Source: Nemania diffusa
Lineage: Eukaryota; Ascomycota; Sordariomycetes; Xylariales; Xylariaceae
NCBI GenBank assembly: GCA_038501195.1
Contig: JBBPUQ010000005.1
Coordinates: 310,001 to 374,000, forward strand
Length of the DNA: 64,000 nt
Reading direction: 5' to 3'
Shown here: in pieces, positions 635-823 of the stretch
Layout of the letters: every line of letters starts with the position of its first letter
How positions within the stretch are numbered: position 1 is the first letter of the stretch
Program-made: the position numbers and the translations under genes
Notes under the pieces: generated by a model
The model's input: only the letters and a program-made list of their open reading frames with translations
Database searches by the model: none
Told to the model about the DNA's origin: nothing

Positions 635-764
635 GCCCGGTTAGCTCAATCGGTAGAGCGTGAGACTCTTAATCTCAAGGTTGCGGGTAAGCTATTCTGC
701 CAATAAAAATTCGGTTCCGAATTGTACTAACATCCACAACCAGGTTCGACCCCCGCATTGGGCT
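635..764 (+). tRNA. tRNA-Lys (anticodon CTT) split by a non-canonical intron
   Basis: Removing 687-743 leaves a complete 73-nt tRNA. The acceptor stem GCCCGGT pairs with ATTGGGC and is followed by discriminator T. The D stem is GCTC/GAGC, the anticodon stem TGAGA/TCTCA encloses loop CTCTTAA (anticodon CTT, lysine), the variable loop is AGGTT, and the T stem is GCGGG/CCCGC with loop TTCGACC. The usual nuclear tRNA intron site after position 37 is uninterrupted. The insert instead lies between positions 52 and 53, inside the T stem. The A box (in TAGCTCAATCGG) is intact. The B box GGTTCGACCCC is intact whether or not the insert is present, because the last G of the insert supplies its first base. 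A T-run terminator follows. The gene may be expressed and spliced, or may be a dead copy; sequence alone does not decide. Confidence 0.9.
687..743 (+). other. 57-nt spliceosomal-type intron inside the tRNA T arm
   Basis: The insert begins GTAAGC, carries a perfect TACTAAC branch sequence at 725-731 and ends CAG at 741-743, with 13 nt from the branch A to the 3' end. All three signals match those of the protein-gene introns in this window, and the length is typical of them. It contains a 7-bp inverted repeat, AATTCGG (708-714) and CCGAATT (717-723). Eukaryotic tRNA endonuclease normally cuts next to the anticodon, so it would not be expected to remove this insert. Confidence 0.8.
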
Positions 765-777
765 CAATTCCTAATGC

Positions 778-823
778 CTCCCAGTTTCAACTGGGAGTAC
801 CAACCTATTTTTTTGCTTTTTTT
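778..823 (+). terminator. Pol III-type terminator with preceding hairpin
   Basis: A perfect 9-bp inverted repeat (CTCCCAGTT at 778-786, AACTGGGAG at 789-797) is followed by two T7 runs at 808-814 and 817-823. This lies 14-59 nt after the tRNA 3' end. T-runs are the expected Pol III stop signal; the hairpin is extra. Confidence 0.6.

Follow-up and report, generated by a model that had tools for sequence, protein, structure and literature searches.

Putative spliceosomal introns in the T stem of nuclear tRNA-Lys(CTT) genes of Nemania diffusa

Nuclear tRNA introns are the textbook domain of tRNA endonuclease and ligase, and we know of no case in which the spliceosome serves tRNA maturation. A tRNA-Lys(CTT) gene of Nemania diffusa, whose T stem is interrupted by an insert resembling an mRNA intron, raises the question whether such a gene can be a working one or is merely a dead copy. 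The gene lies at the start of a 64-kb stretch of contig C5 (positions 310001-374000), which is called the window throughout. In this study, we analysed it together with its relatives in the 55.6-Mb, 16-contig genome, the single genome compared. Our results favor a working gene, and they extend beyond the original prediction in two respects: the interruption runs across the gene family, and the genes carry a structured 3' trailer.

The interrupted gene and its paralogues

The 57-nt insert that the original prediction had described in the T stem, with its GTAAGC, TACTAAC and CAG, is present letter for letter, and the B box is intact with the insert in place (Table 1). We take TAGCTCAATCGG to be the A box and GGTTCGACCCC to be the B box from their consensus sequences. 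The Rfam tRNA match (50.1 bits) bridges the insert and spans exactly the whole gene; it is the only gathering-level Rfam match within the window, in which ARAGORN called no tRNA at all. Because G repeats at the boundary, the intron can be shifted by one base each way, and only one register gives GT...AG.

Table 1. Features of the interrupted tRNA-Lys(CTT) gene and its trailer, in window positions
Feature	Position	Strand	Remarks
tRNA-Lys(CTT) exon 1	635-686	+	tRNA positions 1-52; anticodon CTT at 668-670; identical in 11 of 11 copies; Rfam
A box (TAGCTCAATCGG)	642-653	+	Internal Pol III promoter element, by sequence
Spliceosomal-type intron, 57 nt	687-743	+	GTAAGC 687-692, TACTAAC 725-731, CAG 741-743; same site in 9 of 11 copies
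tRNA-Lys exon 2	744-764	+	tRNA positions 53-73, discriminator T; identical in 9 of 9 intron copies
B box (GGTTCGACCCC)	743-753	+	Its first G doubles as the intron's last base; AGGTTCGA in 9 of 9 intron copies
Trailer hairpin H1	755-777	+	755-762 (tRNA 64-71) pairs with 770-777; competes with acceptor stem and T stem
Trailer hairpin H2	778-797	+	778-785 pairs with 790-797; changes on both sides in 4 of 7 counted pairs
Trailer motif CAACCT	801-806	+	Complementary to exon 1 678-683 (AGGTTG), just 5' of the 5' splice site
T run	808-814	+	Presumed Pol III terminator, by sequence

The number of other CTT genes had been taken by the original prediction as bearing on whether this copy is alive. A 23-base anticodon-arm pattern, with up to two mismatches allowed, found 11 tRNA-Lys(CTT) genes in the genome, all with zero mismatches; no decayed copy was seen, there being no match to the 23-mer with one or two mismatches genome-wide. 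Two genes (L044 and L047) are intact, and nine, including the window copy, carry an insert at the same site, 52/53, as had been placed for the first gene. With default settings ARAGORN called Lys(ctt) in none of the nine interrupted copies. Once the inserts were excised in silico it did so in all nine, as in the two naturally intact genes, so that the restoration of the tRNA claimed for one gene holds for the family. When introns of up to 100 nt were allowed, L039 was called Lys with a differently placed intron and L042 was called Thr (one of nine each).

After splicing, 73 of 73 exon positions would be identical across the nine intron copies, and the intact pair differs from them solely at position 68 (C for T). 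In BLAST comparisons of the nine 3-kb loci, all 36 pairs showed homology over 172-284 nt, with an identity of 74-84% when the invariant exons are counted. This homologous stretch corresponds approximately to the gene and its trailer and to little else, apart from upstream homology of about 50 and 80 nt that L037 has with L041 and L042. As related sequences, the nine copies are not nine independent observations. Chance is excluded because the same site and the same signals recur in 9 of the 11 genes, and fixed exons and fixed splice signals with a drifting remainder indicate selection for the spliced product. These results argue for nine selected, spliceosome-dependent genes rather than dead copies. 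The alternative that gene conversion keeps the copies alike would require conversion to halt exactly at the splice sites, and conversion would be expected to erase the difference at position 68. The nine genes probably go back to a single gain of the intron, after which the gene was duplicated and dispersed; the two intact genes seem to form a lineage of their own, judging from position 68 and their different trailer.

It could be argued that the interrupted copies are dead or decaying, or belong to a tRNA-derived, SINE-like repeat, and that the two intact genes do all the work. The interrupted copies are indeed dispersed, a SINE-like repeat with a B-box-like core exists in the same genome, and the intact genes could in principle supply tRNA-Lys(CUU). 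However, the tRNA part of a pseudogene or SINE diverges, whereas here all 73 exon positions are the same in nine copies while intron interiors drift, the splice signals are kept in 9 of 9, hairpin H2 of the trailer is maintained by changes on both sides, and the 23-mer has no near matches. We therefore consider this explanation very improbable. The original prediction had allowed that intact CTT genes together with a lack of conservation would mark a dead copy; the intact genes do exist, but conservation is not lacking, since the nine paralogues keep both exons and splice signals. AAG is used 102 times and AAA 38 times in four long open reading frames of the window; demand for tRNA-Lys(CUU) is therefore to be expected, which fits the 11 genes.

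Some further matches were seen around these genes. In the L037 cluster, two more tRNA matches (2003-2083 and 2123-2213) lie downstream of the intron-bearing tRNA-Lys, and the intron-bearing locus L042 has a weak antisense tRNA match at 1492-1546 on the minus strand (32.7 bits; gathering score 29). The exon, the exon-intron junction and the trailer had no matches in prokaryote genome contigs or viral contigs, neither of which contains fungi. A 16-base junction pattern gave 53 viral-contig matches, 5 of which passed a loose tRNA-context filter; none was tRNA-like by eye, and these were taken as chance.

Splice signals, promoter elements and the responsible machinery

The nine inserts are 54, 55, 57, 57, 57, 60, 61, 63 and 64 nt long. 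Their 5' splice sites are GTAAGC (one copy), GTAAGT (four) and GTGAGT (four), all GTRAGY and fitting the GTRNGY-like U2 type. The branch motif is CTAAC in eight copies and CTAAT in one, the terminal AG is present in 9 of 9, and the distance from the branch A to the intron end is 13 nt in seven copies and 12 and 9 nt in the other two. In anchored columns, all nine copies agree at positions 1, 2, 4 and 5 of the 5' site, at CTAA and at the terminal AG. Apart from position 3 of the 5' site, which is A in five copies and G in four, the splice-signal columns overall reach 8-9 of 9, against 3-7 of 9 in neighbouring columns. Intron interiors are hardly more alike than shuffles, whose 95th percentile is exceeded by 11 of the 36 pairs. 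All nine inserts thus have the attributes of U2-type introns, namely the 5' site, CTRAY at a suitable distance, the 3' AG, and a product restored by exact removal. At the level of sequence, positions 635-764 are accordingly best read, as originally predicted, as a nuclear tRNA-Lys(CTT) gene with a spliceosomal-type intron; the signals and the nine sets of invariant exons support this reading.

The inserts differ from canonical nuclear tRNA introns, which lie at 37/38. Another conceivable route is excision at an ectopic bulge-helix-bulge by tRNA endonuclease and ligase, as in Cyanidioschyzon, and atypical nuclear tRNA introns of that type do exist (PMC3978253, as far as its available text goes). 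We looked for the motif in the nine copies in three registers, the GT-AG register and its two neighbours, and did not find it at the splice sites. In the GT-AG register a central helix of 4 pairs is possible in four copies, but only 3 of its 4 pairs form in the other five and the flanking helix has 1 of 3 pairs in 9 of 9; in the neighbouring registers the central helix has at most 2 of 4 pairs. Moreover, the conserved GTRAGY, CTAAY and AG would be needless for bulge-helix-bulge cleavage. Endonuclease removal is thus extremely improbable, and a spliceosomal route is preferred.

The mRNA introns of the window offer a comparison, albeit a small sample. In its PP2C gene, four introns, though not one further gap, were resolved with relatives' proteins and a splice-signal pattern. 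Their 5' sites are GTATGT, GTGCGT, GTGCGT and GTATGC, none of them GTRAG; three have CTAAC and a TAG end, and the fourth has CTGAC and a CAG end. The PP2C and tRNA-Lys introns share the general type and differ in the GTRAG start. They are also unlike in composition: the tRNA-Lys introns are rich in A (39%, against 25% T) and seven of the nine contain A runs of 4-8, while the four PP2C introns have 15-19% A. The PP2C reading frame has its best matches in Nemania and other Xylariaceae, and a TRP-domain protein encoded in the window shares 88% identity with a Xylaria cf. heliscus protein, its best named matches being in Xylaria and relatives.

The sequence elements of a functional tRNA gene, a cloverleaf, an A box, a B box and a T-run terminator, are all present. 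The B box borrows the last G of the intron, and all nine intron copies retain AGGTTCGA; the intron therefore sits between the A and B boxes without damaging either. A T run of at least five starts 38-46 nt 3' of the tRNA in 11 of 11 copies. From these boxes and the T run, we infer that the interrupted genes are transcribed by Pol III. Within the introns, TTT runs are rarer than in shuffles (1 against 4.5; P 0.03, in one of six run tests), T4 (1 against 1.0) and T5 (0 against 0.24) runs show no significant depletion, and A runs are enriched (A4, 10 against 3.8; A5, 5 against 1.3). Alternatively, the introns may be spliceosomal and the loci transcribed by Pol II within longer RNAs, as spliceosomes usually act on Pol II RNA and some copies (L037 with L041 and L042) share upstream sequence. 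The intact A and B boxes, the T run downstream of every copy and the depletion of TTT speak against this, as does the interruption of U6, which by general knowledge is a Pol III gene. Pol II transcription is thus unlikely, and Pol III remains the preferred polymerase for these genes.

The U6 genes bear directly on this point. Both full-length U6 genes found (L068 and L069; 1501-1653), among 47 of 2665 candidates scored, carry a GTAAG...CTAAC...AG intron after ACAGAGAAGAT, and small RNAs of Pol III type are therefore evidently spliced in N. diffusa. The U6 introns contain a B-box-like AGTTCGANTYC stretch, as in fission yeast U6. A third U6-like match (L070, 1501-1569) is partial, on the reverse strand and without intron, and is possibly a retroposed spliced U6. 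No inserts were seen in the 40 of 40 5S matches (108-120 nt) or in the sole match to SRP RNA (278 nt; model of 293 positions). For U3, which is known to carry introns in fungi, the Rfam model had no match in the genome, an uninformative result.

Other tRNA isotypes were searched genome-wide for CTAAY within 30 nt before AGGTTCGANNCC, which gave 28 places against 3 for the reversed control: the nine Lys genes, 15 copies of a dispersed repeat, and L071, L077, L080 and L094. No 52/53 intron in another isotype was found among these places; introns elsewhere in tRNA genes, or beside other B boxes, may exist, the tRNA family search having scored 63 of 1964 candidates. By reading, L077 is an intronless tRNA whose variable arm is long; L071 is perhaps a diverged copy of the repeat, and L080 and L094 are isolated matches. 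The repeat (near position 1500 of L072, L074-L076, L079, L082-L085, L089, L090 and L095-L098) has a B-box-like core near CTAATCGGGGTTAGGTTCGATTCC and unrelated flanks, most copies ending near TTTTAGCTCATCT, and is possibly a SINE-type element. Two other interrupted tRNAs of the genome, Glu(CTC) (L061) and Ile(AAT) (L032), have conventional anticodon-loop introns by reading.

The structured trailer and a proposed course of maturation

In all 11 genes, the trailer folds together with the tRNA 3' end into two hairpins, H1, in which tRNA positions 64-71 pair with the trailer, and H2. Pairs were counted in the nine intron copies only, because MAFFT misaligned H2 of the intact copies, where it is known from their folds. 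Every cell of H1 is paired, seven of its eight pairs being invariant and one varying between U-G and U-A. In H2, 98.4% of cells are paired and four of the seven counted pairs have changed on both sides, which none of 500 shuffles reached. A further helix, P, pairs GGTTGC of exon 1, directly before the 5' splice site, with GCAACC, GTAACC or CAACC in the trailer. In the combined structure of H1, H2 and P, 98.9% of cells are paired and four pairs, all in H2, have changed on both sides; paired cells, both-side changes and the covariation score were each reached by 0 of 500 shuffles, and the number of further pair types, one of five structure measures, was no higher than in shuffles (493 of 500 reach it). 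Helix P itself shows conservation without covariation, with four of six pairs invariant and one cell unpaired. Its match is 6-7 bases long in 9 of 9 intron copies and 4 bases in both intact copies, a length reached by 28-315 of 2000 shuffles per copy. In the predicted ensemble of the unspliced RNA, P has a probability of at least 0.62 in seven of nine copies, of 0.03 in L037 and of 0.00 in the window copy; H1 is weak in L037 (0.28). The first 17 bases of the trailer, with up to two mismatches, occur at 83 places in the genome against 51 for the reversed control. No exact copy was seen standing alone in the genome: the nine exact matches and two others are the 11 Lys genes.

When folds were forced, the H1 fold was favored over the cloverleaf in all nine intron copies, by 2.1-6.9 kcal/mol in the spliced and 1.3-6.3 kcal/mol in the unspliced RNA, and the cloverleaf was favored in the two intact copies, by 2.7 and 4.7 kcal/mol. 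In the unspliced RNA, the trailer brings the predicted pairing of the acceptor stem down from 0.83 to 0.03 (mean of nine). It does not open the splice sites in silico, the 5' site being unpaired at 0.44 without and 0.39 with the trailer and the branch site at 0.52 and 0.49. Since acceptor pairing is lowered and the splice sites are not opened, the role suggested for the trailer is to delay end-processing rather than to expose splice sites, and we infer from these predicted folds that it may hold back end-processing until splicing. A switch driven purely by the RNA goes beyond the folding evidence, because the alternative fold is still favored after splicing; the cloverleaf would have to win afterwards by something else, such as trailer cleavage, La or tRNA modification.

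That the alternative fold beats the cloverleaf in 9 of 9 copies, even when spliced, and that the trailer is conserved and structured would also suit a regulatory RNA that contains a tRNA-Lys moiety but is not a tRNA, the spliced or alternatively folded RNA being the product. Such an RNA would leave unexplained why 73 tRNA positions are invariant in nine copies, including the acceptor 5' strand, the D arm and the anticodon arm, which H1, H2 and P do not use, and the intact CTT copies have a similar H1/H2 trailer. We regard a regulatory RNA as improbable.

Taken as a whole, and as far as can be read from the DNA, we judge it highly probable that the interrupted nuclear tRNA-Lys(CTT) genes are functional, with a T stem that holds a U2-type spliceosomal intron and a maturation that is splice-gated. 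In the proposed scenario, Pol III, directed by the internal A and B boxes, would transcribe through the intron and the structured trailer to the T run. The trailer of the intron class would fold back, H1 taking the 3' strand of the acceptor and the CAACC-type motif being able to pair with the part of exon 1 next to the 5' splice site, and this refolding may delay end-processing until splicing is done. The spliceosome would excise the 54-64 nt intron, as its signals and their conservation suggest, and join positions 52 and 53. Only then could T stem and acceptor stem form normally, followed by end trimming and charging. It is a more tentative proposal, and on balance a somewhat doubtful one, that the main source of tRNA-Lys(CUU) is an obligate spliceosome substrate with a co-evolved trailer that makes trimming, export and charging await splicing.

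Implications and comparison with known systems

Exact phrases for spliceosomal introns in nuclear tRNA genes gave no literature matches, and no precedent was seen among the matches listed, mostly from non-subscription literature, which leaves priority unproven. The available part of a 2021 study of 17 structural RNAs in fungi (PMC8216456) shows no element of this kind; for what is known, we cite the accessible portion of a 2026 review (PMC13149111). The structured 3' trailer of the tRNA-Lys genes is new here.

If the proposed reading is true, 9 of 11 genes that need the spliceosome break the division of labour between endonuclease and spliceosome, and the spliceosome can act on a Pol III transcript whose promoter boxes are internal. 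Translation capacity would then be linked to splicing, the supply of a major tRNA being coupled to the capacity of the spliceosome. The origin of mature tRNA would be readable at position 68, with U68 from the intron genes and C68 from the intact genes. As ARAGORN by default misses all nine genes, other annotation pipelines may miss them too, and the phenomenon could be wider.

Canonical nuclear tRNA introns, cut at 37/38 by tRNA endonuclease and ligase and by reading present here in Glu(CTC) and Ile(AAT), likewise interrupt tRNA genes, but differ from the tRNA-Lys introns in position, motif and presumably machinery. A close likeness is the mRNA-type intron of fungal U6 snRNA, reportedly first found in fission yeast: U6, like tRNA-Lys, is a small Pol III RNA with a GT...CTAAC...AG intron, although U6 is itself a component of the spliceosome. 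The introns of fungal U3 snoRNA are also spliceosomal and also lie in a small structured RNA; U3 is not a tRNA, however, and the source, in its available part, names no tRNA and describes U3 and U6 as the only small structured RNAs so far known to be often interrupted by introns (Canzler et al. 2017, PMC5832005). In Cyanidioschyzon merolae and in nucleomorphs, too, ectopic and permuted tRNA genes are disrupted outside the canonical site. According to the accessible text of a 2014 review of permuted tRNA genes (PMC3978253), ectopic nuclear introns are bulge-helix-bulge-mediated, or in Guillardia often have no defined motif, whereas the tRNA-Lys introns of N. diffusa have mRNA-type signals.
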